A stretch of 25,940 nucleotides of DNA from a virus, in IMG/VR virus record IMGVR_UViG_3300009079_000111, positions 1 through 25,940 of that record. One strand, 5' to 3'. The notes beneath the pieces were generated by a model. The model saw only the letters and a program-made list of their open reading frames with translations. It was not told the DNA's origin and ran no database searches. A program made the position numbers and the translations under genes. This document shows, one piece after another, positions 193 to 18,467 of the stretch (the stretch's first letter is position 1; the number at the start of each line of letters is the position of its first letter).

Positions 193-935
193 GCCATTGC
201 CGCCCCGGCCAGAAAGCCGTGCCAAATTGTGCCGCCATCGCGGGTCATAAATGTGTAAAGGTTTTTCGCCCCGCTCGCCGGTGCGTCAGGTGCAGCCCCC
301 TCCGCCCAATCAACAGACGCGGGCCATGTTAGCGTGTGCGTCCCGCCCGCCGTCAGTTCCAGCGTGAATTGCGAAACTGTGCCGCTTGCCGCCGGATTGG
401 TAAACGTGAACGTGGTATTGCCGCTGGTGGTCAGCGTGAAATACGTTCCGTCCTCCAGATCAACGCTTGGCGTCGTGCCGGAAAGCGCAGAGGCGACAGT
501 CTCTTGCAGTTCTGTGACCAGCGTTGCGCCGGAAAATAACGCCGCTCCAGAAACCGTAACCGTGGTTAATGTCGGTGTCTTGCCAAGTGTGAATATTGCC
601 CAATTTGTCGCGTCCGCGCTTGGGTCGGTTGTTTCCCCGCTGTGCGTTGTCGCCGCCCGATATGACTGGAAATCGACCGTGGAATAGACCGCATCGCCAG
701 AGGTATATGATGCCGCCGAAACCCACGCATCAGCCTCAGAACCCGCAGCAGACGCCGCAGCAGACGCCGCAGCAGACGCCGCCGCCGCCGCGTCTGTCGC
801 CGCGTCTGTCGCCGCCGCATCCACCAGAACCGCGACCGGCGTGAACCACGACAGCCAATCGTCCATGTCGCCAGAGAATGTCGCCACCCCGGTGATCCGG
901 TTCGGGATTGTCCCACTATATGCTGTAATCGCCAT
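189..935 (-). CDS. Tail fibre-like protein with Ala-rich linker and chitin-binding-like module
   Basis: A 248-residue protein. An N-terminal segment (1-38) is followed by a low-complexity Ala/Ser/Asp/Thr stretch (about 39-66, TDAATDAA then AAAS units), probably a helical or extended linker. Next comes a small module at about 69-116 with aromatic and GD positions (AWVSAASYTSGDAVYS, then a Tyr, HSG and NW), like the carbohydrate-binding modules of chitinase type found on phage tails. The rest is Thr/Ser/Gly-rich beta sequence ending in an aromatic TIWHGFLAG tail typical of trimeric fibre C-termini. The start overlaps the previous stop (TAATG at 937..933). It most likely forms part of the tail tip or a side fibre that touches the host surface. 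The linker is coded by short tandem DNA repeats. Confidence 0.7.
   Translation of the reverse strand: MAITAYSGTIPNRITGVATFSGDMDDWLSWFTPVAVLVDAAATDAATDAAAAASAAASAAASAAGSEADAWVSAASYTSGDAVYSTVDFQSYRAATTHSGETTDPSADATNWAIFTLGKTPTLTTVTVSGAALFSGATLVTELQETVASALSGTTPSVDLEDGTYFTLTTSGNTTFTFTNPAASGTVSQFTLELTAGGTHTLTWPASVDWAEGAAPDAPASGAKNLYTFMTRDGGTIWHGFLAGAAMA
745..813. repeat. 12-bp tandem repeats encoding the Ala-rich linker
   Basis: Three perfect copies of GCAGCAGACGCC (745-780), three GCC triplets, then two perfect copies of GCGTCTGTCGCC (790-813). All lie inside the fibre-like gene and keep its frame, since the unit is four codons. On the coding strand they give Ala/Ser and Thr/Asp/Ala units. Such arrays can gain or lose copies by replication slippage without breaking the frame. 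Confidence 0.85.
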
Positions 936-1855
936 TAAACTAATCCCTCAACTTCCATTGTTGCATCTGAAATTGTCGCGCCCGTAGTGATCGACCAGCC
1001 GCGATAGAAACCGTAAACCGTGACACCGTATTGCTCGGTGTCCGTTCCGGCATTGAACACAGCCGGGGTCGCCCGCACCGTTTCCAGCAACGTAGCGGCC
1101 CGCCGAATTTGCTCCGTTCGGACCACGAAGTCAAAGTCGATCAACTTGGCAAAAGGCCGTTCGGTGATGATCGCGTTGCCCCATTGGTCCCGTTCTTTGA
1201 CCGAATAATCCTCAATCGAAACCGTTGTCCCGAAGAGCGTTTCGCCAATCTGGTATTCACGCCCCAAAACAATCTCACCAATCTCAGGAACCTCGCCAGA
1301 CGCCGCCGTAAACGTCAGATCGAACGTGGCGGCGGCATAGGGAGGAATGCCCGAGAAAATGGCCTCCGTCCTGTAACGGACTGGATCAAATGCGTAGGTG
1401 TAGGCGTCAACAATCATACTGTTATCAATTAGCGAGACCGTTTCGTCGAATACCTCGCCGTCATTCGGGTCGGTAACAACAAGCTGCACCGAAATCCCGT
1501 CAAGGCCGAGACACGTCACGCCGTTGGCGGGTTGCGTAAAACCGTTGAGCGAATACGTTTCTGTCACGCTGTCGCCTATCGTGGGGTCCGAGATGATATT
1601 GTCAAAGGCCCGCCAGATATTCGTGGCAGAAATCCGCAGCCAATTTGGCGGGTCTGATGTGTCGGTGTCAGGGTTAGTCGATGCGCCGCTAGTGTGAGCG
1701 ACAAGGCATTCATAAACGCTGTGTGTGGTCGTGGAAATCACGTTATCCCCGACCGAATAACTGGTCGAAGTCGCCCACACGGCATAGTCGTTTTCTGGCA
1801 GACTGCACGAGTTCAGGTTGGCGTCCGTAATCGCAAATGGAATTGTGACTAGCAT
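935..1855 (-). CDS. Distal tail protein downstream of tape measure, with chitin-binding-like module
   Basis: A 306-residue protein. I place the start at MLVTIPFAIT because AGGAG lies seven bases before that ATG, just after the tape-measure stop; an upstream in-frame start would overlap the tape-measure gene by more than 120 bases. Residues about 23-76 hold a module with VWATSTSYSVGDNV, a later Tyr-Glu-Cys, an HTSG turn and NWLRI. This resembles the small carbohydrate-binding module also present in the next gene. It is followed by TNIWRAFDN, a phrase common to phage proteins encoded just after the tape measure. The remainder looks like beta-sandwich sequence. It probably belongs to the tail tip or baseplate. 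There is no enzyme motif that I can see. Confidence 0.7.
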   Translation of the reverse strand: MLVTIPFAITDANLNSCSLPENDYAVWATSTSYSVGDNVISTTTHSVYECLVAHTSGASTNPDTDTSDPPNWLRISATNIWRAFDNIISDPTIGDSVTETYSLNGFTQPANGVTCLGLDGISVQLVVTDPNDGEVFDETVSLIDNSMIVDAYTYAFDPVRYRTEAIFSGIPPYAAATFDLTFTAASGEVPEIGEIVLGREYQIGETLFGTTVSIEDYSVKERDQWGNAIITERPFAKLIDFDFVVRTEQIRRAATLLETVRATPAVFNAGTDTEQYGVTVYGFYRGWSITTGATISDATMEVEGLV

Positions 1856-1859
1856 CTGA

Positions 1860-4800
1860 TTACTCCTGCAAAGCCGGTTGGCCGATATTGTCCCACTTGC
1901 GCAGGGTATCGCCAGTGCGCTTCGTGTATTTAGTGATCTGGTGCGAACTAGTGCGTTGCTCAGTGCGCAACTCGCGCAGTTCCTCACGCAAGGCCCTAAG
2001 CTCCCTCACCATTCCAGCGTTGCCGCCGCCCTTGGTCATATCGGTCACATGCTCTTGAGGGTGCAGCATAGACAGGAACCCGCCCTGCCCGTCCAAGCCC
2101 CCGGAGCGCGGACCGGAGCCGGTAAAACCGCCGCCAGCGAATGACGGAACAGCACCAACACCTTCTATGTTGCTGGACCAATTATCTATCCAGCCGATAG
2201 TTGACAGGATGGCCGAACTAATCTCGCCAATCTGCGATTGCAGTCCGCCCGCGCCGTAGAATTGGCTGACAAACTCTGCGTCCCCGGCCCCTTGCGTCCG
2301 ACCATCTGCAATGTACTGGATGGTGCCGTTCGCGAGTTGAGTTAGGGTTGCGGCGGCACCATTTGGACCGTTCGTCAGGGTTGTTCCTGTTGATGCCTCA
2401 AGCGCCCTGATTTCCGCAATAATGTCTGCGGCTGTTGACTGTTGATTGGCGAGCCTGTTTGCGGCGGTTGTGCCGTGGGCCTGCCAGTTGGCGATTTGTG
2501 TCGCAGTTTGTGCCGCCTGCTCAGACGCCACCATTTCGGCAGCGATTTGCCGCGTCAGGTTGCGGATTAACCCTCCTAGACTGGTAAGTTCGTCGCCCAA
2601 CTCATCCATGCCAAGGTCGAGCGTTCCAATCTCGCCGCTGAACCAACTTGAAAGGGTTGCGCTTGGGTCAAATTCAAACCCACCGCCAATTTCAATGAAG
2701 TTGGTTCTAGCCGCATCTAACAGGTGCAATAGCCGTGTACCGGGACGCCCACCTTGGATTTCCGCGAGCATGGTCAATGTCGCGTCGAACCCGCCGCCAG
2801 TTAGCAGTCTGGACAGGTACTCCCCTTTAACGTCGCCCAAGGAGGCGCTCATTGTAACAGTTCCGGTCAGACCTTCGTTGGCGATAACATCGGCCAGCCA
2901 ATCCACGCCTGACACACCGGCAACCGGCGAGATAATTCCGTCCACGCCAAACGCGCCGCCGTTCAGTATGGTAGATACCCAATCGGTTGCTGCTTCCAGT
3001 CCTTCAGGCGTTATAACCCCGTCTGAATTAAATGCGTCACCGCTCAGTATGGTAGCAACCCAATCCACCGAGGATGCAACGCCCAATGGCGAGATAATCC
3101 CGTCTGCCGTAAGGTCGCCACCGCCGAGGATAATTGCCAGCCAAGCCGGTACATCCATCGTTCCATCAGCGTTTGGGCTGATCAGAATATCCGTAGGGTC
3201 GATGCCGACCCCGTTCAATACATCCTCAATCCCCGGCGGCACACTGTCGCCTAGAATTGTGCTGACATTAACCGATGAGGCCAGCGTTGCCCCGGAGAGG
3301 GCAATCAGATCGTCAATTGAAATATCGCCAGAGTTGAATGCGTCGATGCCAAGATCAAGCCCGGTGATCATGTTGTTGGCTTCTGCCGCCAACAAGAACC
3401 TCAGGCCGGGGTCCATATCCTCATCGCGGAAAATCAGATCAACAAGACCCTCAAGCGACGTGCCGGAGGCGTCCAATAGGTCTTTAACATAATCAGGGAC
3501 GTTGGCGTCATTGACATTGATCATCAGGTCGGCCAGCGCGGCCTGAATTGTGTCATAACTCATCGCCGCAACGTCTGTCAGGATGCCCTCAAGTTCGACT
3601 ATATCGCCGTACAGCAGCCCAATCTCGTTAAGGATGCTCTCGTAATCTTTGGGGTCGGCTGTCAACAGGCTTTGGAACAGGTCGCGCATATCCTCAAAGA
3701 TGCTGATTTGCGCGTGATAAATGTCGGCCATGTACTGATCTTTTGCGCCCTCAAATTCAGAGATGCCCGCGAGCAATTGCGCGTCCCGCTCGACCTGAAT
3801 AGCCGCGCGTCTGTAATCGGTTGCGCTGGATGCCGTGTCGAACACTGCGCCCAGATACTGGTTAGCCGCCCCGACATAATCATTTGCCGCGCCCTGATCC
3901 CCGCCCCTCGCCGCTGAATAAATATCGCTATACCGCATGGCGGTTGCTTCGAGAATTTCCGCACGACTGCGACCGCCAAGGTCGGTGGTCCGCAATGTCA
4001 CGAGGAAGTCGCGCAATTTATCAGCCGTTTGCAGCCAAAGCCGGGATGATTGCTCAAGCGTTTGGGCCAGCGATTTACGCTGTGCAATCTGCTCGTTCAC
4101 CATGTTGACGCCCTCAGCGACGAACTCCGAAACCTCCGGCGATACGCCCCCAAGGATTGACCCCATAGCACTGGCCAGCGACATTAACTGTGCGTAGAGA
4201 GTGGCCCCCGCGCTGGTGGTCGTGTCAATGCTTTCGACCAGTGCCCTGAATTGGCCCTGCGTAGTCGGCATGGCAAATCCCAATTCGGTAATCTCGTTCC
4301 TCAGATATTCGGTTGTCAGCGCCGTTTGTTCGGCTTCGGTGTAGAACGCTTGGAAGTAGGCTTGCGTTGCGCTCGCCATGTTCGACGCGCCGCCGAATGC
4401 GTCCACAAGCGTAGAGGCCATATCAGCCCCCGCTAGGGACGCTTCAAACATTTGATGACCCAAGAGGCGTGCGCTGTCGTTTGCCGCGTCCAGTGACGTT
4501 GCCAGCCGCGTCAGCGTGTCCATAGCACCTTCGCCCGCGCGGGTGTATTCCTCAGTGCCTAGAACCAGTTCAGCCATTGCGTTCGATACGGTCGCAATCT
4601 CGCTGTTCAGCCCTTCCATGATCTCGGCTTCGGACAAGTTGTGAACCCAGAGCGTGAATTCGTCGCCCACGAAGTTGCGGATTTCCCTAACCGACAGGCC
4701 CAAGCTGCGTCCCATGTCGCGGATACTGTCGGTCACAGCGTCCATTGCCGTGTCAAGTATCGCTGTCACTTGGCCGTCAACGTCGCTGTAATCAGCCCTA

Positions 4801-7800
4801 TCGCCGCGCAGGAACCCGCCGCGATAGAAATCAAACTGCGTCCCGTCAAAGCCATCTGACCCCATTGTGCCGCGAATGGCGGTGCCCGCGTATGTCTGCG
4901 ACAGCCCCTTCACCAAGATGCCGATGCCAACCGCCAATGGTCCCAGAGCGCCAACAAGCCCGCCGATTGCCGACAGGCTACCGGTCATGGCCGAGCCAAA
5001 CTGCGCCCCGAGGGTGCCAATGTAGCCACCGATGCCGCCGCTCATAAGCGAGCTTACGCCAAGGCCCAATCCACTACTCAAGCCGCCGATCAGGCCGTTG
5101 GCCCCGATGGTATTGCCCAACAAGCCGCCAAGGATACCGTTGCCGGTTCCGTTGCCCGTCTGCGCCGCAACCGCGCCCCCGGCCAACGCCGCAGCCCCGC
5201 CACCGGCTATCGTGCCGCCAAGTGCCAGCAAAATTCGGTTGCTTGCCGCTGTCGCGACCATTTCTGAAATCATGCGCTTGAACGAATTCAGAACCGCGTC
5301 CTTGAACCCCTCAAAGTCAGTGAAACCAGAGGCCACAAAGTCACCCCATGCAGACGTGATACTGTCAACGCTGGTCGCCATTTCCTTGCCAAGAATGTCA
5401 GACAGATCAACCGCCTCTTCCTTGGCTTCCTTGATCGCCTTACCCGCCCCGCTTGTGCTCTTGGCAAGTTTGGCCGCTCCGCTTGCGCTTGCCACCAATT
5501 CCCTGCCGAGCTTTTTCAGCGAGTTGATTGCCGGTGTCGCTGTTTTGACAAAAATCCCCGTCACCCTACTGGCAGTGCTGAATGCCTGTCCGACGCGAGT
5601 ACCGGCCCCGATCATGCCGCCACCTACGCGCGACAACGCACCGGCTAGGTTGTCAGCGTCAACAATTAGGCTCCTTAGCGAGTTTCCCGCGCTTGACAGG
5701 GCGGAAAGAAGCTCACCGAGCGGGTCTGAGGTCTCAATCGCCCCATAAAAGGTGAGGATGTTCTGCGCCAGAACGCCAGCCGCGCTTGCCGCGTTTCCAG
5801 CCCCGACACTGAGGTCAGACATGCCGCCGCCAGACCTCAGAATAGTGGCCTCAGCGGTTGTCAGGAACGTCACCATACGGCTCAGAATGTCAGCCTGTTC
5901 CTTGTATCCGGTCGCGGCTTCAAAGTCCCTGATCATCAGGGCGAATTCACGCTGAGCCTCTATGCCAAGGGACAGCTTGCTGACCATCGCATCAATCGAA
6001 GTGACTTGTTCGTCAATGCTTGCCGAGAAATTGGCCTCAGCTAAGACGTTCATGGCCTTGCCAAGATCATACGCCTTTACCGCCGCAAATCCGTATTGCT
6101 CTACCAGCTTGGCAAAGTCCAGATCGACAAGGGCAATTGACGAACGTGTCGCCTCCTTGATTTCATCTGACAGCCCCCCAAGATCATCTGTCGCGAGGGG
6201 AATTCTTCCGCTTAGCTCCAACTCAATAGCCGCGCCAAGTTGGGCTATGTCGCTGGTGAGGTCCGCCAGAGCTTGGTGCTGTTCTGGCGTGCCGTATTCG
6301 ACATTTTCAATCGCCTGTTGCAACTTGCTTTGCTCGTGCAGCAAGTCGGCCAAAACCTGCTTTTGCTTTTCGACAGCCGACGCACGACTTTTTGCGTCCG
6401 AGATACCGGGCAGATCAACGCCCATTTCTTGCGCTCGCAGGGCAACCGTTTCCAACTCCAGAAGCTGGTCCCTTGCATACACAATGTCCTCGTACAGTTG
6501 CTGACCACCAAGAGCGGCTTGAGCTTCGGCCCGTTGGCGGTCCAGAATTCGCGACAACTGTTGTTTCTCAAACTCCATTGACGCCTTGGTCACGGCCAAT
6601 TTCTCACGCGCGGCGTTTGTCAGTTCGATCATTGCGGTTTTGGTCAGTGCTATCTTTTGGCCCTGAGCCTCAAGGGCGGAGGTTGCGCCCTCTGCCGCCG
6701 CTCCAAACTCTTCCTGAGCATCCCGCAAGCCAAAGAATACAAGGATGCCGTCCGCTGCATCGCTGAGCGCCGTGATAAGCTTGGCGGTAAGCCGCAGCAC
6801 TTCGGTCATGGCCTTAACGACCCCACGCAGCACCGCCGTCAGACCAGCGTCGCCAAGGGCCGTGATCACCCCCATCAGCGCTGACTGCAAGCTGTCAAGA
6901 TCACCGCCCAAGTTGTCCCGCATCGTGTCAGCGGTTTCCTTGGTGGCCCCGTCCACGTTCCCAAGCTCATCTGTAAGATCGCCAAGCCGGTCAGTTGCCG
7001 CGACCATTGCCAGCGCCGCCGGTCCGCCTTCCATGCCAAAGATACGCATAGCTTGCGCCGCGCTCATCCCCTTTTCGTGGAACAGGTCCATAATGTCCGT
7101 CAAATCGACGGTGGCCGGGTTCACTTGGGCGAGGCTGATGCCCATTTCCTTGAGGGCGTTGGAAGCATCTTTCGTTGGGGTGACAAGGCGCGAAAGAATG
7201 TTGCGCAAGCTGGTGCCAGCCATGCCGCCCTGAATACCCGCGTCTGACAGGACGCCCACCGCCGCCGCTGCCTCCGACATGGATATGCCAAGGCTGGACG
7301 CGACCGGGCCGACAAACTTCATTGCCTGACCAAGCTGAGATACGTTCGTGTTTGCGCGGGTTGATGCCGCTGTCAAAATGTCCGTTGCCTTGGATGCCTC
7401 TTTGGCGCTCAGGCTGAACCCCGACATGATGTTTGACGCCGTGTCAGCCGCTTCTGCTAGGCCCATTGACGCCGCCGTCGCAAGATCGACCACCGCCGGG
7501 ATTGTGGCCATCGCGTCACGCGCAGAAAACCCGGCCATAGCGAGGAAGGTCATTCCGTCAGCGGCTTGCTTGGTGCTGAATTCAGTTTCAACGCCCAGCC
7601 GCTTGGCGACCTTGCGCATTGCGTCCATTTCACCGCCGGTCGCCCTAGAGACGGCGGAAAGCTTTGACATGGATCGTTCTAGTTCAGACAGGACGGAAAT
7701 AGAGCTTGCCAGACCTTGGAGCGCACCAGCAACAGCGGCGACAATTAGGCCAACACCCTTGAAGCTCTTGCTGGCCGCTGCACCGGCGGCGACGCTCTTG

Positions 7801-9370: not shown

Positions 9371-9772
9371 TTAAGTCGTCATGGCGCTGTACCCGATCAT
9401 AACCGGAACCCTCCAATCGCCATCGTCATTGTATCCATCGCGTATGTCTGCCGGGCGATTAAAGGCTATCTCACCGCCCGTGATCGCAATTCTCGACCCC
9501 TCAGGGAAGATCGCTGCGACCTGATCTGCCAAAACATCCCCTGAGACCGCCCCTGACGCCGCCTGAGTGACGATAATGGCTGACATGACCCCTGAGTAGC
9601 GAATGACCTCAGAGCCTTTCAGGGTGCCGCTGGTGCGCTCTGAGGAAATGTGTGAAACCTCAATTCGCGGCCATACCGCAGAGCGCGGGGAATTCGGCCA
9701 ATCAATATCCACGCCAAGCGCCGCGTCATAGAGCGCCTTTTGCAGTAGTGCTTTGACCTCGTTCGTATTCAT
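9371..9772 (-). CDS. Tail terminator protein (DUF4128-like)
   Basis: A 133-residue protein starting MNTNEVKALLQKALYDAAL. The ATG overlaps the previous stop (ATGA at 9772..9769), which favours it over an upstream in-frame start. After an N-terminal helix it continues IDWPNSPRSAVWPRIEVSHI, SGDVLADQVAAIFPEGSRI and ends with DGDWRVPVMIGYSA. This layout, with a WP.I motif, a late helix with AAIFP and a final strand, matches the tail-terminator fold (lambda gpU-like) annotated as DUF4128 in many siphophages. Its role is to cap the finished tail tube and offer the surface that joins the head. Its place between the gp10-like neck protein and the tube protein agrees. Confidence 0.8.
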   Translation of the reverse strand: MNTNEVKALLQKALYDAALGVDIDWPNSPRSAVWPRIEVSHISSERTSGTLKGSEVIRYSGVMSAIIVTQAASGAVSGDVLADQVAAIFPEGSRIAITGGEIAFNRPADIRDGYNDDGDWRVPVMIGYSAMTT

Positions 9773-10209
9773 TTGACGTTGTTCCTCACCCAGATCGCAT
9801 TGCGCCTGACAATGGCTTGCCAATTCACAACCGCGCGGTCAATCCAGAACCAGCCGTCCATGTGCTTCGTGCCGTAATGGACGTGCCGCGCATAGCTTGC
9901 CGCCGGTCCGCCCCACATGAAGCTAATCACATCGCCAGACTTTACCTTGCCGATAATGAGCCGGTGGCTGTCAGCGCCTTCCTGACGAATACCGCCGTGG
10001 ATGGTCGAGACCAATGATTTTGACAGAGTTGAGAGGTCAACCGGGATGAAACCGGGCTTGGCATTCTTGGCCCCGCGCGTGATGCCCATAGTTCTGCGAG
10101 CCGCGCGACCGATCACGTCGCCGGTGCTGCGACGCGCCACCAGATCGAGACGCCGTTGGCTCTTGGCAATCCAAGCGTCAACGTCAGCGGAGAATTCCTT
10201 CGTTTCCAT
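9769..10209 (-). CDS. Neck / tail-completion protein (HK97 gp10-like)
   Basis: A 146-residue protein from METKEFSADVDAWIAKSQRR. The ATG directly before it (10212) is equally possible; a more upstream start would overlap the previous gene further. The central part (FIPVDLSTLSKSLVSTIHGG) and the late motif YARHVHYGTKHMDGWFWIDR with a final helix are the signature of the HK97 gp10 / lambda gpZ-like group, where an aromatic 'YA.yVEYGT' loop is followed by a helix. Proteins of this group sit at the head-tail joint or help complete the tail. It precedes the tail terminator in the usual order and overlaps it by four bases. Confidence 0.75.
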   Translation of the reverse strand: METKEFSADVDAWIAKSQRRLDLVARRSTGDVIGRAARRTMGITRGAKNAKPGFIPVDLSTLSKSLVSTIHGGIRQEGADSHRLIIGKVKSGDVISFMWGGPAASYARHVHYGTKHMDGWFWIDRAVVNWQAIVRRNAIWVRNNVK

Positions 10210-10447
10210 CATCTTTCCAAGCGTCTTTCGCAGGATCATATAGCGACATTATGTCGCGTGTCAGCCCCATTGCCAAGCTTGTTCCTCTAATGTCGGGCCA
10301 AGCCTCTCTTTTGACGTGTGCCCCAAGTGACGCAGCCGGGGCCACAAAGCGCTGAACCCTCGTGTGCCAAACGCGCACAAGCTCGCCCCGATGGTCCTCG
10401 CCAACCTTGACCAGAATGCGGCGTCCCTTCTTTCCGATAACCTTCAT
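10184..10447 (-). CDS. Small protein of unknown function downstream of the MuF gene
   Basis: An 87-residue basic protein, MKVIGKKGRRILVKVGEDHR at the start and DPAKDAWKDDGNEGILR at the end. I do not recognise it. Its ATG overlaps the stop of the 1335-residue MuF gene (ATGA at 10447..10444), and its 3' end overlaps the start of the gp10-like gene by 26 bases. The N-terminal part looks like a small beta unit and the rest is mixed. There is no signal peptide or membrane segment. It could be a neck protein; because it is coupled to a MuF protein with a possible effector extension, it could also be a cognate immunity or chaperone partner. That second idea rests on gene order only. Confidence 0.6.
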   Translation of the reverse strand: MKVIGKKGRRILVKVGEDHRGELVRVWHTRVQRFVAPAASLGAHVKREAWPDIRGTSLAMGLTRDIMSLYDPAKDAWKDDGNEGILR

Positions 10448-13400
10448 GTTTCCATGCCCCCGCCATCATATTCCCTAAGCTTCCACGTTGTCGGCTCCCA
10501 AACCAACGTGGAATAATCATCGGTTCCCAATCTATGCTCGACCCAGACGTACCGATCTGCCGTTGGCAGGTACTCGTATGCGCTGCCGCTGCCCGCCCCT
10601 TTGACAATTTCGCGATGGAATTCAGCCGGGGAAAGCGTTGATGGAATGGGGGTCTCCCTGCCGGTAACATCAGGCACCCCGCGAGGGTCAGCGGTTTTCC
10701 AGATATGCGGCTCCAATGTCTCAGACATAATCACCAGCCGCCCGTCCTTCCAGACCGCTCGCTCTGTCTTGTCATCGTCCGCCTTGATCCAAATCTTGCC
10801 GCCGATCTTGCCAATCTCGCCAAGAGAGAATTCGAACCCGCTCTTTTTGGCCTCAGCCTTGGCCTCTTCGTAGGTTGACGGATACGCGCTGACCACCCTG
10901 CCAAAATCAGAATAGGTGCTTTCGATCATCGCATTTCTGATCTCGCCCTTTGACTTGGCGTCATCCTTCCCTCCGATACTGCCTGACTTGTAAATTGTCA
11001 TCTCGGCGGTGATGGGATTGATGATATAGGTCCACGTTTTTTCGCCGCTTGGAATTAAGCCGCTCCCCTCGCTTGTCCAACTGCGAACAAACACGTTGGG
11101 GTCTGCCGTTGGGAAAAATTCCCCGCGCTCGACAAAGCCTGACACAATGCTCCTGACCTGCTTGTGATCCATCCGCATTTGTTTGATTTGATCACCTGTC
11201 GTGTCTGGAACCCCGATAGAAATGCTCTCAGGATACAGGTCATCAAGAATACGAGGTGCCTCGGAAACGACAAATCGCCCGGCGTCATCAAACTTGCCGA
11301 TCCTGATTACATGCTCATCAGCATAGCCCCAAGTGTCCCCGTCATAGGCGCTCAAGCCAAGCTTTTTGGCGTACTCTGTAACATCTTCCTCAGACATACG
11401 AGCAACGCTTGTGACCTCACCGGGAAAGCCGATGACCGGGCTGACAATCGGGTCAATGTCAGTGTCGAGATATGACCCCCTACCCCACGTCAGCCGATCC
11501 AGTCTCCCGCCGGTCCAGACCTCAATCCGACCTTCCTCGCGGGAGTAGAAATATACGCCGTGGCTTTTGCTGTCAGCGCCGCGCTTGACGAACGTGTACC
11601 GGTCACTTGTTGGCACCATGTCTCTGACCATCGCCATAAAGTCACCATAGCTCTGGTGCTCAATCGTGTCGGTCATGTCGCCCGGCCCGGCGGTGCCCTT
11701 CAATCCGCCGATAGAAAACGCCCTGTGATCTGGCATGGGTCGATCATATGCCGTCATCGTCCCGGTCGCCATGTCAAACTCTACGGTTCTGATTACCTCA
11801 ATCCTAGCGCCGGTCTCCGTTCTCACCCTTAGACCCACATCGGTCCACACGTCGCCGTCACGGTACACATTCCCAGAGGTTATCGCGTTCGCAGCCTCAT
11901 AAATATCTCCCCCTGACAATCCAGTAACACGCGCTGTCACAGGCCCCAGATCAGACCGCAGGGAAGAGGCCCGCATAACATCAGCCAAGTCGCCAGAGCG
12001 CGGCAGCTTGAACACCTCAAGCGTCCTTGACCCCGCGTCCCAAGTCATCGTCACGTCCGACCTGTCAAGGGCGTCATACCCGGTCCAGATGCCCGGCGTG
12101 TCCGTTGCCTCAAGGGAATACCGCGAGCTTTCGACAAACCGTTCAACATCCTCAAGGTCAGCATCCATGCGGCTGTCAAGCGCACCAAGGCCATCACCGG
12201 CCCATGCAAACAGGTCGCCGCCCACCGGAAAATCAGAACCCGCCGCGTCGTTCGCGTCGTATTCTTTCAGTTCAAACTTTTTCCGCCAGTTGTCATTGCC
12301 GCCCTCTTCCCAAGGCGCTCTGAAATCTGGGTATCCATCAATTCGAATTTCTGGCCTTGCGCCGGTTGCCTCTAGGACCGAAAACAGGTCAGGCAACAGG
12401 GCGTCACCATCGTTATCAAGGTGATAATCCGACATTTCAGAAATGATGATCTGACTAATGTCGCCGCTGTCAACTTCACCGAAAATCTGCGCCTCAACAT
12501 AGCCCACCTCGTCAATACCGTTTGGCGGCGAAAGAGCATCGCCATTTGATAGGGGGATAAGAAATTCACGGCTTGCCGTATTCGCACCTGATGAGCCTGT
12601 CGGCTTGAACGGAACAGACCACGCGCGGGGGTCATTCATTGGTGACGGTGCCAATGGTAGATACTCAGGTTTACCCCAACTTGACACAGCCACTGGCCCC
12701 TTTGGACCGTTGCCCACGCGACGCAGAGAGGCCATAGCCATGCTGGTATCATCAAGCGTGTCACCAAAGACAAACGTGGTTCTCGCCCTGACCTCAGGCT
12801 TGAGCTTGATTGTAATGTCGCCATACCCAGCAAGGCGTGAGGCAAATTCCTCTTCACGATTATCCATGACAAAGCCGTAAACCGGACGTTCCTCATGGTG
12901 TGCGCCCTGATCAATGTCCCAGAGCGCAGCCTCCGCAAAGTCCCTCGTGTCATGGCTCAGGTAGCCGCCTGACGTGTTCGTATAAAACTGGTTCCTGAAC
13001 CTGTCATTGAGGATCGAATTTAGGTCATTACCGCTGACCTGAATTGCCGGGACCGCGTGCTCAAGATACTGAGCCAAGCCATCCTCAACATTGTCAGGCG
13101 TCATACCGTCTGGCCAGAATGAGATTGTCTCATCCTTGAGGTAATCCTCCCAAGCGCCGTCCGACCACTCAGCCGTTCGCAATTCATAGGGGGGAACCGG
13201 CTGATCCAGACCCCACGACAAATAATCGTCCTTTTGTGTCGCGCCAAAATCAATGTCCGTGATAACGAAGCAACGGCAGTTTATTGCGTCAGCCGCCGTC
13301 GCCCCCATAGACCTGTCCATCGGAAACATCATTTTCCCGCGAATGCCTGATGTAAAATAGGCCCTGTCAGTTACCCCAATCGCAACTTGGCCGTCCATGC

Positions 13401-14451
13401 TTGCGTGATGGTCCCGCGTTGCCTTATCGGCGGTCGCGTCCCAAGTTCTCTTGACTTGGTGATCCTCAACTTCACCGCGCTCGACCATCTGTCGCAAGCT
13501 CTCAAATTCAGCATGGTTCATGCTGCCGATAAGCTCAGTTCGCGCGATATTCTCAGCCCGATACCGTAGCGTCCGGTTGCGGTACTTCGTCACCATCTTG
13601 TCGGCTTGCGCTGACGTGATCTTGCGGCGTCCCGGCATGGCGGCAAGGCGGCGCTCACGTCCAGCCAATATCACCCGCATGGCACGCTCACCGGCGGCGT
13701 CATCCCGGCGCTGGGCTTCAGCTATCCGCTCGCCAAGAACAACCCGGTCCTTGATCATCGCTTTTTCGTGGCGAAGGTATAGGACGCGGTTTTCTACGGC
13801 GGTGTCAAATCTAGGGTCTCTCAGTTCCCTTGACAGGTAGCTATTCAAGCCAGAAATGGTGTCGCTGTTCAGTTCGGTTCTGACATTGTTGGCCCATTGG
13901 TTTTGGGCCGGGGTCAGCCCGATCATGCCGCCCTCTCGCATCCCCGTGCGCCGGTTGATACGGCCCACCAGATCAAGCGCCGTTGTTCTCGGGCTTCGAC
14001 CCTCTGTCATGCTCTGCGTCAGAGCCATCCGCACGTTGTCGCGGGTCTCGTTTTCGATTGAAGTGATGAGCGTTGATGATCTTTCCGCCAAATACTGTTC
14101 AGCTCGTGGATTTCTGGCGTCAAACGACACAACCGCAGCCGGTGCCATGTCTGGAACCCTGTCAGGCAATTGTGGGTTGGCGGCATATTCGGCAAACGCC
14201 TGAGCCGCGTTTTCTGTCACTTGCTGACCGGCCTGACCATAGGCCAGCTCAACAACGTCTTGGACCTCCCAGAAATAGTCTGGCAGATACCCGAGCCGAC
14301 CCAAAACGCCGGTCATTGATCCGGTTCTGACAGCATCCATAAGTGCAGTGAATTGCGCAGCGCTGCCAAACGAGTAAATGCTCTCGACAAAGCGCTCCTG
14401 AAACTCAGGCTCAAGAGCCTCAAGGATACTGGAAAAACCATCGTTGATCAT
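10444..14451 (-). CDS. Giant MuF-type minor head protein with DUF3626-like segment and C-terminal repeats
   Basis: A 1335-residue protein. Residues about 1-295 are mostly helical, as in other minor head proteins. Residues about 295-400 carry the Mu gpF / SPP1 gp7 domain: ENIARTELIGSMNHAEFESL, KRTWDATADKATRDHHASMD and the terminal NCRCFV cysteine motif. Ordinary family members end near here. This one continues for some 930 residues. Segment 450-705 (FRNQFYTNTSGG at 485-496, ERPVYGF at 521, LKPEVRARTTFVFGDT at 550-565, YVEAQIFGEVDSG at 651-663) resembles DUF3626 as I remember that family. From about 765 to the end are alternating diverged repeats. The MuF part is injected or capsid-internal in related phages, so the extension may be cargo that enters the host. 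Start by ATGA overlap with the upstream gene (14451..14448). Confidence 0.85.
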   Translation of the reverse strand: MINDGFSSILEALEPEFQERFVESIYSFGSAAQFTALMDAVRTGSMTGVLGRLGYLPDYFWEVQDVVELAYGQAGQQVTENAAQAFAEYAANPQLPDRVPDMAPAAVVSFDARNPRAEQYLAERSSTLITSIENETRDNVRMALTQSMTEGRSPRTTALDLVGRINRRTGMREGGMIGLTPAQNQWANNVRTELNSDTISGLNSYLSRELRDPRFDTAVENRVLYLRHEKAMIKDRVVLGERIAEAQRRDDAAGERAMRVILAGRERRLAAMPGRRKITSAQADKMVTKYRNRTLRYRAENIARTELIGSMNHAEFESLRQMVERGEVEDHQVKRTWDATADKATRDHHASMDGQVAIGVTDRAYFTSGIRGKMMFPMDRSMGATAADAINCRCFVITDIDFGATQKDDYLSWGLDQPVPPYELRTAEWSDGAWEDYLKDETISFWPDGMTPDNVEDGLAQYLEHAVPAIQVSGNDLNSILNDRFRNQFYTNTSGGYLSHDTRDFAEAALWDIDQGAHHEERPVYGFVMDNREEEFASRLAGYGDITIKLKPEVRARTTFVFGDTLDDTSMAMASLRRVGNGPKGPVAVSSWGKPEYLPLAPSPMNDPRAWSVPFKPTGSSGANTASREFLIPLSNGDALSPPNGIDEVGYVEAQIFGEVDSGDISQIIISEMSDYHLDNDGDALLPDLFSVLEATGARPEIRIDGYPDFRAPWEEGGNDNWRKKFELKEYDANDAAGSDFPVGGDLFAWAGDGLGALDSRMDADLEDVERFVESSRYSLEATDTPGIWTGYDALDRSDVTMTWDAGSRTLEVFKLPRSGDLADVMRASSLRSDLGPVTARVTGLSGGDIYEAANAITSGNVYRDGDVWTDVGLRVRTETGARIEVIRTVEFDMATGTMTAYDRPMPDHRAFSIGGLKGTAGPGDMTDTIEHQSYGDFMAMVRDMVPTSDRYTFVKRGADSKSHGVYFYSREEGRIEVWTGGRLDRLTWGRGSYLDTDIDPIVSPVIGFPGEVTSVARMSEEDVTEYAKKLGLSAYDGDTWGYADEHVIRIGKFDDAGRFVVSEAPRILDDLYPESISIGVPDTTGDQIKQMRMDHKQVRSIVSGFVERGEFFPTADPNVFVRSWTSEGSGLIPSGEKTWTYIINPITAEMTIYKSGSIGGKDDAKSKGEIRNAMIESTYSDFGRVVSAYPSTYEEAKAEAKKSGFEFSLGEIGKIGGKIWIKADDDKTERAVWKDGRLVIMSETLEPHIWKTADPRGVPDVTGRETPIPSTLSPAEFHREIVKGAGSGSAYEYLPTADRYVWVEHRLGTDDYSTLVWEPTTWKLREYDGGGMET

Positions 14452-14798
14452 GTTGTAAGCTCAACCTCATAGACAACGGAAACGCCCTTGTATTCCGCCT
14501 CCTTAACCTCGCCAACAATGTGTATCGCGCTGCCGATTGTCAGCTTGTCGCCCGGTGTCGGGGTTATACCGTCAGCCGAGCGCATGATGACCCCGCGATA
14601 ATAGACTTTGGCACCGTCTCTGATGCGGACAAGTCGGTCGCTCTCGACCACATAGACCGGGGTGTCTGCATCGGCACCCGCCGTAGGGTTCCAAGGGTCG
14701 CCCCCCACCGCCGTTCTTGTCAGGGTTGCCAGTGTTCCGTTGTCGCCAATGAGCTTGTCAGCAACCGCCCGTAGGCTGGCGAAGTTTATTCCCGCCAT
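14448..14798 (-). CDS. Head completion / stopper-like protein
   Basis: A 116-residue protein, MAGINFASLRAVADKLIGDN at the start. After an N-terminal helix it has LTRTAVGGDPWNPTAGADAD, then beta strands including GDKLTIGSAIHIVGEVKEAE and a terminal VSVVYEVEL. This order (helix, 'G.(W/Y).P..G' turn, 'P.PGD.L.I' and a last strand with 'YE(V/L)') is common to siphophage head-completion or stopper proteins that plug the portal after packaging. Recognition is by pattern and place, so the exact subfamily is uncertain. The start overlaps the previous stop by one base (TGATG at 14800..14796) and the stop overlaps the MuF start. Confidence 0.65.
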   Translation of the reverse strand: MAGINFASLRAVADKLIGDNGTLATLTRTAVGGDPWNPTAGADADTPVYVVESDRLVRIRDGAKVYYRGVIMRSADGITPTPGDKLTIGSAIHIVGEVKEAEYKGVSVVYEVELTT

Positions 14799-15954: not shown

Positions 15955-16033
15955 TCTCTACTTTCTTGCGGTCTTCGAAGACCGCCGTTGGGCATTGGAC
16001 GATTTCGTAATCTGGCAAAACGCCCTCAAACAT
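15935..16033 (-). CDS. Small ORF (32 residues), unknown function
   Basis: A 32-residue frame starting MFEGVLPDYEIVQCPTAVFE and ending VEIVAEPD. Its ATG overlaps the last eight bases of the HNH gene, a normal coupling in this cluster, and its codon choice fits its neighbours. Function is unknown. It is acidic and short, with no membrane segment. Confidence 0.4.
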   Translation of the reverse strand: MFEGVLPDYEIVQCPTAVFEDRKKVEIVAEPD

Positions 16034-16379
16034 TCCCATCCAGTACCCGCCGCACGTTAGCGGGCAGCATCGCCGCGACATGCGGGACTGGCGTCATGGC
16101 ATCGACAATATTGCCGCGCGTATGGTTGCACTCGGCGCAGGCGCAGCAGATGTTACGCAATCCCAGACTGCCGCCACATGACTTGGGAACGATATGTTCC
16201 GCCGTGGCCTTGCGGCGTCTGAGGTTGCGTGTGGCGTTCGGTGTACCCTTGGTTATGTCCAGACGGTCCCGCGCCTCATCGCGGCTCATGGTGGTGTGGT
16301 TCCACGTTTCACGACCACACCAGATGCACAGGCGGTTTTGCTCCTGCCAGCGCGTGAGGAGTTCGGTTCTGTAACTCAT
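16026..16379 (-). CDS. HNH endonuclease
   Basis: A 117-residue protein with a compact beta-beta-alpha-metal nuclease motif. A first zinc pair is C18-x2-C21 (LCIWCGRE). The catalytic region is A-E61-H62-I-V-P with GG at 69-70, followed by N76, and the second zinc pair C81-x2-C84 before N85-H86 and N90 (AECNHTRGN). These residues bind a structural zinc and a catalytic divalent metal and cut DNA. In many phages a small HNH protein next to the terminase helps cos-end packaging; here it lies some 7 kb from the terminase in the accessory island, so it may equally be a free-standing homing-type or nicking enzyme. It is coupled to its upstream gene by ATGA (16379..16376). Confidence 0.85.
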   Translation of the reverse strand: MSYRTELLTRWQEQNRLCIWCGRETWNHTTMSRDEARDRLDITKGTPNATRNLRRRKATAEHIVPKSCGGSLGLRNICCACAECNHTRGNIVDAMTPVPHVAAMLPANVRRVLDGNV

Positions 16380-17873: not shown

Positions 17874-18467
17874 TCAATCGGCGGAATGAGTACAGATGAA
17901 CCCGCTATCTGTGCGCTGTACGATCCGGTAGCCGACCGTCTCCAGCCAAGGCTCAAGGGTCGGTTCAGGCTTGCCAAAGCAGAACAGGACCGGGCGGTTC
18001 TCTGACAGGGTTCTTGTTGCGCCTGTAAGCGCGTCCTGATTGGTCTCGCCAATGACAATGAGGTCGGGCCGGGATGACCGGCTGTCGAGGGTAAAGACCT
18101 CAACCTTTGATCCTGACATGATGATCCGGTTCGATCTGCAATTGTCGGGATCATCCCTGACAAGATGACCAGTCCCAGATTTGCCAGAAAGGCCGGCGCA
18201 GTAGGGCATGACGTTCTCGGTCGAATTCTTCAAGAGCGCCCTGTAATTTTCGGGGTCAGGCTCATAGGCTTCGACCCGCCTGAATTCCGCTGACAAAAGC
18301 ACCGCCGAAACGCCGCAATCCCCTACGGTACAAATCGCCTCTCCGTACCGTGAGACGTAGGCATAAGCCTCAACAAGATCACTTGCGGCCTCAATGGCCG
18401 ATCCCACCCCAAACACGTCCGTCGCTGGCCACGAAAAACCAGCCGCTCCCATAGTCAATCCACGCAT
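17874..18467 (-). CDS. FkbM-like methyltransferase-fold protein with altered motifs
   Basis: A 197-residue protein. Residues 45-60 (ICTVGDCGVSAVLLSA) occupy the place of the SAM-binding loop, followed by VEAYEPDPENYRALLKN (65-81) where E69 would bind the SAM ribose, and LDSRSSRPDLIVIG (127-140) with GATRTLSENRPVLFCFG (149-165) in place of the FkbM 'kiDvEGaE..vl.GA...l....P.l..e' segment. So fold and order match FkbM O-methyltransferases, but the usual DVGAN loop is TVGDC and DVEG is IGETN. It may have changed substrate or lost activity. Such genes in phages could modify surface glycans or metabolites. AGAAGGGG lies before the ATG. First gene of the accessory island. Confidence 0.65.
   Translation of the reverse strand: MRGLTMGAAGFSWPATDVFGVGSAIEAASDLVEAYAYVSRYGEAICTVGDCGVSAVLLSAEFRRVEAYEPDPENYRALLKNSTENVMPYCAGLSGKSGTGHLVRDDPDNCRSNRIIMSGSKVEVFTLDSRSSRPDLIVIGETNQDALTGATRTLSENRPVLFCFGKPEPTLEPWLETVGYRIVQRTDSGFICTHSAD

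Follow-up and report, generated by a model that had tools for sequence, protein, structure and literature searches.

Our analysis suggests that the 1335-residue head protein of this virus carries an ADP-ribosyltransferase domain of the same class as the Salmonella effector SopF. In the reading we favor, to which we assign a probability of roughly two in three, this enzyme is borne by the virion on a minor head protein, is injected at infection and modifies a host macromolecule.

The window, i.e., the whole stretch of DNA analyzed here, is a contig of 25,940 b (IMG/VR record IMGVR_UViG_3300009079_000111) that contains chiefly head and tail genes, and a tRNA search found none. The gene of the giant head protein lies at 10444..14451 on the minus strand, which the original prediction of this long frame had left unstated, and it reads from an ATG start through 1335 codons without an internal stop. 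DNA identical to that of the window is present in two further IMG/VR records, namely 3300027525_000506 (100% identity over the whole 7,317 b compared) and 3300009024_000096 (100% identity over 11,796 of its 18,469 b). An assembly slip is thus unlikely and the long frame can be regarded as real. The GC content, calculated in steps across the gene, ranges from 0.52 to 0.58 with no marked shift.

Residues 1-400 (13252..14451, minus strand) correspond to a head-morphogenesis/MuF part, as indicated by PHROG matches and tblastn. The protein was matched by phrog_3517 at E 3e-71 (the better of its two stretches covering residues 9-221 alone) and by phrog_2468 at E 5e-27 (residues 91-396), and the head morphogenesis protein of Rhizobium phage RHph_X2_24 aligned to this part at 33% in tblastn. 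The MuF domain had been expected to end near residue 400, and the Pfam Phage_Mu_F domain (PF04233) does span residues 285-397 (13261..13599, minus strand; E 1.3e-8, 36 bits against a cut-off of 29.6). The 1335-aa protein therefore possesses the N-terminal MuF domain that is a trait of MuF polymorphic toxins. Directly upstream lies a head closure Hc1-like gene (14448..14798, minus strand; phrog_161, E 4.4e-7), while a Neck1/tail completion-like gene (9769-10239, minus strand; phrog_5, E 7.3e-6) and a tail terminator gene (9371-9823, minus strand; phrog_179, E 2.9e-14) are found downstream. A similar order, i.e., terminase, portal, capsid, head morphogenesis, tail protein and tail terminator, is seen in Paracoccus phage Pkon1, the head gene of which is 1,032 nt long. 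The homologous head gene measures 1,029-1,041 nt in four related phages, so that the extension is dispensable for head assembly in them. In addition, the ATG of an 87-aa ORF (10184..10447, minus strand) overlaps the stop codon of the head gene. This ORF had no match in PHROG, Pfam and NCBIfam searches, and its best row in the phage tblastn was at E 4; it may encode an immunity protein, or else it may be a head gene.

The SopF-class domain, also known as DUF3626 (PF12294), occupies residues ~451-735 (12247..13101, minus strand), as judged by profiles, an AlphaFold2 model and a fold search. When the 1335-aa protein was analyzed alone by hmmscan, DUF3626 was placed on residues 484-568 with E 2.6e-5 and 23.8 bits, under the 27-bit cut-off. 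Adding a second piece near YVEAQ raised the total to 29.6 bits, over the cut-off, in line with the DUF3626 character originally proposed for the extension. A profile built from 34 relatives, with the window excluded, was further run against the 189 frames of the window together with 200 shuffles and the protein in reverse. It recovered the 1335-aa ORF at E 3.5e-42, while the next best entry was one shuffle at E 0.13, and membership in the DUF3626 family is thus beyond chance. The motifs common to the aligned relatives (R503, PxYG, YG, RxT, D[ST] and YxEAQ) are all present in the window. As a point against, phrog_8314, a PHROG listed as unknown, matched 10/10 relatives scanned but was absent among the 12 PHROGs matching the 1335-aa protein at E 0.1.

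SopF carries DUF3626 at residues 178-338 (PMC6682159) and is an ADP-ribosyltransferase with an I-Y-E triad that modifies a protein (PMC10333799). Family profiles including the window reached the SopF crystal chains in the PDB at E 9.6e-11 and 5.2e-10, and the family profile without the window did so at E 3.1e-7; SopF was the one known enzyme reached in this way. The 1335-aa protein as sole query reached no PDB sequence at E 5, so the link to SopF runs via the family profile. The AlphaFold2 model of residues 430-760 had a pLDDT of 73.5 and a pTM of 0.75, with 69 of its 331 residues under pLDDT 50 in low-confidence loops. Among PDB folds the model matched SopF first (Foldseek E 2.5e-7, VIA Z 13.5), i.e., an enzyme, which supports the ADP-ribosyltransferase initially suggested. 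OspC3 was also among the fold matches and CteC appeared in the VIA list; VIP2, Alt and other phage enzymes of the RSE type were not in that list, which shows nothing alone. In BFVD, SP-15, a Nodularia DUF3626 protein and minor capsid proteins of phages were among the best matches. NAD+ use is predicted from the fold, and ART-fold NAD(P) glycohydrolase effectors such as Tne5 have been reported (PMC13285283). The domain could accordingly be an NAD+ consumer that hydrolyzes NAD+ and hits the energy state of the cell, either on injection or from a prophage. We consider this unlikely, given that SopF, its closest solved relative, modifies a protein and that no feature of the window domain favors hydrolysis.

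Concerning the active site, the window keeps R503, Y525, G526, Y543, G544, R557, T559, D564, Y651, E653 and Q655, each of which is found in 31-35 of the 35 aligned sequences. The glutamate of YVEAQ, E653 (12493..12495, minus strand), had been proposed as the final element of the site; it is present in 35/35 sequences and lies on a late core strand of the model (residues 652-656), and is the candidate catalytic glutamate of an ADP-ribosyltransferase. Y543 of the YG motif (12823..12825, minus strand) is likewise invariant (35/35), and Y525 of the VYGF strand (12877..12879, minus strand), where 34/35 sequences have Y and the model a strand, is a candidate for the tyrosine of an I-Y-E site. R...TNTSGG as the first part of an R-S-E site fared less well: R484 and S494 are found in only 28/35 sequences each, the position of R486 is mostly K, and the triad of SopF is I-Y-E. 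The R-S-E reading, being weakened, was not kept. ADPrib_exo_Tox was not among the Pfam matches of the 1335-aa protein at E 1.

The window also departs from its family at three well-kept places, having Y490 where 31/35 sequences have E, T565 where 33/35 have S, and no residue where 32/35 have G before RF. These differences, the low hmmscan score of the window domain and a tail of 600 residues without a known enzyme are consistent with a degenerate or structural domain, which would retain the fold but be inactive, the extension serving head assembly or DNA packaging only. However, the eleven conserved residues from R503 to Q655 and the short head gene of the four related phages argue against this view, and we regard it as decidedly unlikely.

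The enzyme does not form the C-terminal tip of the protein but lies centrally, with ~600 further residues after it. This orphan tail (residues 736-1335; 10447..12246, minus strand) appears to consist of weak alpha-beta repeats. No Pfam or NCBIfam match was obtained for residues 760-1335, and no PHROG stretch extended past residue 409 of the protein. Searches with the tail returned no relatives in viral_contigs besides the identical copies and nothing better than E 7 and 9 among the collected phages. The tail profile A7 found none of the other collected loci, and the 50 PDB rows returned for the tail profile, mostly glutamate receptor chains, were no better than E 0.2, which we take as chance. 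In a leave-one-out profile test, the repeat units R3, R5 and R7 each had 0/100 shuffles scoring as high, while R1, with 4/100, was not clear; an ungapped diagonal test gave a best score of 37 against a maximum of 39 in 30 shuffles. For the C-terminal 156 residues, the model reached a pLDDT of 51.6, too weak for a fold search.

The domain is found on diverse carriers. All 29 newly collected viral loci except L019 and L020, whose matched stretch equals that of L018, and the fragment L044 were scanned with Pfam, 26 in total. A head fusion was detected in 10/26, involving MuF (5), VG15 (1), Phage_min_cap2 (2) or portal (2), and an eleventh relative was found to be fused to a head-morphogenesis part in the PHROG scan, which covered 10 of the 26. 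Against the reading that we favor, no head domain was seen in the remaining 15, nine of which were also scanned with PHROGs and three of which run off a contig end, and only two of 10 neighboring genes matched head/packaging families; these neighbors were hand-chosen, upstream or downstream, at 10 of 12 loci, nine beside head-less loci and one beside L024, which has a head part. In L024, the match to phrog_16625, the PHROG of the antibacterial toxin Bxa, at residues 79-322 is joined to a DUF3626 end. The tree contains one 100/100-supported clade of five rows with portal, VG15 and MuF carriers, although VG15 and MuF may be related to each other and the bootstrap is not settled; L024 is labeled MuF by PHROG and L046 is labeled WXG by likeness without a scan. 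A second ADP-ribosyltransferase type was detected in L030 and L043. In Actinomycetota, DUF3626 follows WXG100_2 in 3 of the 9 genome proteins scanned with Pfam (L045, L047 and L050), out of 22 genome loci. These fusions fit a shared toxin domain, and the proteins themselves may be toxins. SAP or HeH domains, which are DNA-binding in known cases, occur in L021, L030, L033 and L035, and DarT is the second-best fold family for the model (VIA Z 7.8-9.3), but a DarT-like modifier of DNA or RNA, perhaps shielding the phage DNA on entry or damaging that of the host, is highly improbable, since SopF scores clearly higher and, of the two, is the one reached by sequence.

Under the preferred reading of an injected SopF-class enzyme, the N-terminal 400 residues would assemble into the procapsid like other MuF/head-morphogenesis proteins, and the domain would be carried along as a passenger. 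At infection the protein, whole or in part, would be ejected together with the DNA. The domain would then bind NAD+ and, using E653, modify a host macromolecule (most probably a protein) with ADP-ribose, thereby helping takeover or countering defense. Within a lysogen the domain may serve as a toxin of the MuF type, restrained by the small neighboring ORF. A broader proposal, possible but somewhat short of probable in our view, is that SopF-class enzymes form a mobile cassette of virion effectors that is widespread among tailed phages. This cassette would move between portal, MuF, VG15 and minor-capsid proteins, at times with 2-4 copies per chain, and would be shared with WXG100 proteins. SopF would in that case have branched off, as a secreted protein, from a phage/interbacterial pool, and the repeat tail of the window might guide ejection or pick the target.

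Fusions of MuF and ADP-ribosyltransferases are already known (Bxa and VIP2 types), and in the open-licence literature searched no paper was found that reports enzymes of the SopF/DUF3626 class as parts of phage heads. DUF3626 and PHROG 8314 in phage head genes gain a testable function, a Salmonella effector is linked to a family that phages use and that is also present in bacterial WXG100 proteins, and the set of enzymes that phages may deliver along with their DNA gains a class. SopF itself (PDB 7DN8, 7DN9) belongs to the same sequence family by profile and is the closest PDB fold. According to PMC10333799, SopF is a stand-alone type III effector that Salmonella injects into animal cells, where host ARF activates it, whereas the window domain sits inside a phage head protein and is flanked differently at either end. 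ARF activation and a V-ATPase target involve eukaryotic partners and would not be expected for a phage of bacteria.

Among head-fused toxins, Bxa of a Bacteroides stercoris prophage is, according to PMC11699363, an antibacterial MuF-fused ADP-ribosyltransferase with adjoining immunity proteins. The window similarly combines a MuF head part, an ADP-ribosyltransferase and small ORFs alongside, but the enzyme is C-terminal in Bxa (621-869) and central here; that of the window is of the SopF/DUF3626 class, a class that Bxa's enzyme might share. The MuF polymorphic toxins (Jamet et al., 2017; PMC5576092) also share with the window a MuF domain with an extension, an adjoining small ORF and a putative toxin domain common to other toxin families; they are tied to temperate phages, while the window is known from a contig of mostly head and tail genes. 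Head fusion and predicted injection are also features of the ADP-ribosyltransferases of the Alt/VIP2 and N4 types that are joined to MuF (PMC9503650; Microbacterium phages, PMC7302621); Alt/VIP2 belong to the RSE clade, a type of site that is weakened as a reading for the window domain. Phage N4 was considered as a source of the family and rejected, as the best E of the family profile was 0.26, not above chance; the N4-like family of PMC9503650 may nevertheless overlap. Mycobacterium phage Tierra gp9 (727 aa), whose database record already names ADP-ribosyltransferase, and the Lactococcus phage P1045 minor capsid protein (555 aa) resemble the window in joining a head protein to a DUF3626-type domain next to a portal gene, and both are without the orphan tail; the P1045 protein has MuF as well as DUF3626 matches, and the minor head protein of Lactococcus phage TP901-1 gave one tblastn row to the domain at E 3e-3. 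Finally, polyvalent proteins carry several effector domains per virion protein (PMC5512222); the protein described here combines one enzyme domain with a repeat tail.

The gene of the giant head protein P0001 occupies 10444-14451 of a 25,940-b virus record; it reads on the minus strand, with 1335 codons from its ATG to the stop, and its DNA is 100% identical in two other IMG/VR records (7,317/7,317 and 11,796/11,796 bases compared). The MuF part had been expected to end near residue 400, and Pfam indeed places Phage_Mu_F at residues 285-397 (E 1.3e-8), with head morphogenesis matches (PHROG 3517 and 2468) over most of residues 9-396. The whole protein matched 124 phage records by tblastn, none above 80% of the query, and the matches listed (40 rows) all fall within residues 2-419. 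In reading order, the genes run from the large terminase (Terminase_6C) through a DUF4055 protein (Pfam), read here as the portal from its position, a 260-aa ORF termed scaffold-like from position only, the major head protein (phrog_283), the Ad1 adaptor (phrog_477), several small ORFs and the Hc1 head closure gene (phrog_161) directly to P0001, and then to an 87-aa ORF, a Neck1-like gene (phrog_5), the tail terminator (phrog_179), the major tail protein (phrog_158) and the tape measure. A methyltransferase-like 197-aa ORF (17874-18467, minus strand; phrog_8156, E 7e-6; NCBIfam fkbM_fam, E 0.0012, below that family's cut-off) is found among the head genes, and a small HNH endonuclease (16026-16379, minus strand; PF14279, E 2.6e-9) between the capsid and head-closure genes. 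Past the tape measure gene, a 350-aa ORF (935-1987, minus strand) matches phrog_6278, whose function is not assigned, and weakly the carbohydrate-binding module CBM_5_12 (23.1 bits, below cut-off).

The homologous head gene lacks the extension and measures 1,029-1,041 nt in the four phages compared (Paracoccus phage Pkon1, Rhizobium phage RHph_X2_24, Salicola phage CGphi29 and Bacteriophage sp. 438212). It is followed by opposite-strand genes in Pkon1 and RHph_X2_24, and thus the place behind it may be open to cargo. In Pkon1 a HipB/RelE-like toxin-antitoxin pair (L069:6997-7602) sits on the other strand directly past the head gene, in the place corresponding to the extension of P0001.

Concerning the middle domain, the DUF3626 likeness noticed in the original prediction was borne out. 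Pfam scored residues 484-568 at 23.8 bits, under the cut-off, and the sum reached 29.6 bits, above it, once a second piece near YVEAQ was added. The enzyme region alone matched 20 phage records (tblastn, E up to 10), including SP-15, Nodularia phages (some annotated as DUF3626), TP901-1-type minor head proteins and Mycobacterium phage Tierra, annotated as 'capsid maturation protease and ADP-ribosyltransferase'. Since the best of these rows stood at E 1e-6 and many at 1e-3 or worse, they would not by themselves prove kinship, which is established at the sequence level by profile tests. A window-free profile of relatives, run against 189 window frames together with 201 controls (shuffled or reversed sequences), ranked the P0001 ORF first (E 3.5e-42; next best 0.13), while profile A1, built from the window and eight relatives, recovered the domain in 29/29 new viral loci.

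Profiles of the family lead to SopF, the Salmonella effector. Against all PDB sequences, A1 found the SopF chains 7DN8 (E 9.6e-11) and 7DN9 (1.3e-9), with the next row at 0.78; the 35-row alignment A4 found them at 5.2e-10 and 1.3e-8 (next row 0.084), and a profile of seven relatives without the window found SopF chains only (3.1e-7 and 3.6e-6). P0001 alone had no match to PDB sequences at E 5. An AlphaFold2 model of residues 430-760, computed from the window and 34 relatives, reached pLDDT 73.5 and pTM 0.75, with 69/331 residues below pLDDT 50. The expectation of an enzyme-like fold held: Foldseek returned 7DN9 first (E 2.5e-7), followed by 7DN8 (8.3e-7) and DarT (6.3e-4), and VIA-align gave Z 13.5 and 13.2 for SopF, 7.8-9.3 for DarT, 7.3 for tRNA 2'-phosphotransferase and 6.3 for OspC3 and CopC. 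In the viral structure library BFVD there were 16 matches at E <= 0.001, SP-15 being the best (2.2e-18) and the first five including a Nodularia DUF3626 protein and a minor capsid protein. Lower in the list, with E values no higher than 9e-5, come fold matches to uncharacterised proteins from giant viruses (Bodo saltans virus, Yasminevirus, Tupanvirus) and from an invertebrate iridescent virus. In SopF, DUF3626 spans 178-338 (PMC6682159); a review describes an ADP-ribosyltransferase with an I-Y-E triad that modifies Q124 of ATP6V0C and is activated by ARF (PMC10333799).

By analogy with SopF, an I-Y-E-like site may comprise E653, which lies on a strand of the model, together with Y525 (or Y543) and one of the hydrophobic residues in the first strand (466-472). 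E653, Q655, Y543 and G544 are kept in 35/35 aligned sequences, and R503, Y525, T559, D564 and Y651 in 34/35. We favour, at odds of roughly two to one, a SopF-class ADP-ribosyltransferase carried on a phage head protein and injected at infection. The window also departs from its relatives, with Y490 where 31/35 have E, T565 where 33/35 have S, and no G before RF (present in 32/35). These departures slightly lower the weight of the injected enzyme and slightly raise that of a domain that has kept the fold and lost activity, which we still regard as improbable.

Searches with stretches of the C-terminal tail (residues 736-1335) gave no match, and one tail profile search returned no row better than E 0.2. 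Visual inspection suggests about seven units in the tail, each combining one helix with three to four strands. With leave-one-out profiles of four units, R3, R5 and R7 scored above 100/100 shuffles and R1 above 96/100; a plain diagonal test was not separable from shuffles. The last 156 residues were modelled as a helix plus four strands, twice, but at a low pLDDT of 51.6.

Of the 31 loci that a scan of viral_contigs yielded, 2 represent the window's own gene. Pfam, run on 26/29 of the others, detected DUF3626 at E 0.01 in 21 (18 above cut-off) and a head domain in 10/26, namely MuF (L018, L023, L030, L038, L042), VG15 (L021), Phage_min_cap2 (L025, L028) or portal (L027, L035). L024 is an eleventh head-fused relative by PHROG, and part of it matches the family of Bxa, the MuF-fused enzyme of a Bacteroides stercoris prophage. 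No head domain was found by Pfam in the other 15 (nine also searched with PHROGs), three of which (L032, L034, L037) run off the contig end. Ten neighbour genes, selected by hand from ten loci (nine of the 15 and L024), matched terminase or portal in two cases, and otherwise tail fibre, helicase, Alt-like ART, epimerase, a family of no assigned function, or nothing. Head fusion is thus frequent but not universal. The gene directly before the DUF3626-type gene in L031 (1826-2605) matches phrog_802, an Alt-like family of RNA polymerase ADP-ribosyltransferases (E 1.8e-5). The domain occurs four times in L026, three times in L037 and twice in L032, L034 and L043, and ADPrib_exo_Tox is also matched in L030 and L043. 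The L026 protein (2994-6632, 1213 aa) has its four domains in a row, and a 1769-aa chain (L027:1107-6413) joins portal, NUDIX and DUF3626-type domain. In genome_contigs the profile found 22/22 loci; among the nine scanned, three carry WXG100_2 and two MuF, one of the latter slightly under cut-off (28.7 bits). The large Actinomycetota proteins of L045, L046, L047 (Microtetraspora) and L050 (Actinomadura) have the domain at their C-terminal end or close to it, and the three scanned (L045, L047, L050) carry WXG100_2 N-terminally. In a tree of 49 domains, whose deep branches are weak and bootstrap not settled, 9 changes of the MuF label have to be assumed, and well-supported branches force at least 4 of them. 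A clade of five carriers (support 100/100) includes two with portal, one with VG15 and one with MuF, the fifth being unassigned; the window groups unsurely with L016 (84/53).

The MuF part would probably, by analogy, bring P0001 into the head near the portal, and the enzyme domain would be ejected together with the DNA and ADP-ribosylate a host target early in infection. Head-fused ADP-ribosyltransferases as a kind are already known, and the annotators of the Tierra GenBank record had recognised one member of this family as such. The SopF/DUF3626 class on a phage head protein was not found in the open-licence literature searched, where DUF3626 returned Salmonella papers only, SopF with polymorphic toxin nothing related by title, and SopF with ADP-ribosyltransferase and ATP6V0C no phage paper by title. 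Within the portions of text available, neither term occurs in PMC9503650 or the first 300,000 characters of PMC3482391, DUF3626 is absent from PMC5512222, and SopF from PMC11699363.

As regards known systems, phage T4 packages its Alt protein and injects it (PMC5512222), and enzymes of the Alt/VIP2 and N4 types have been catalogued as fusions to MuF (PMC9503650; Microbacterium phages, PMC7302621). The present family may partly coincide with the N4-like one of PMC9503650, although phage N4 itself gave no match to the family profile. When expressed, Bxa lowers E. coli viability, an effect that depends on its predicted catalytic glutamate, and two neighbouring immunity proteins neutralise Bxa (PMC11699363). 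A small ORF accompanies 89.4% of 191 MuF toxins vs 25.5% of 952 short MuF genes (PMC5576092); the 87-aa ORF that overlaps the stop of the P0001 gene fits this pattern, yet it may equally be an ordinary small head gene.
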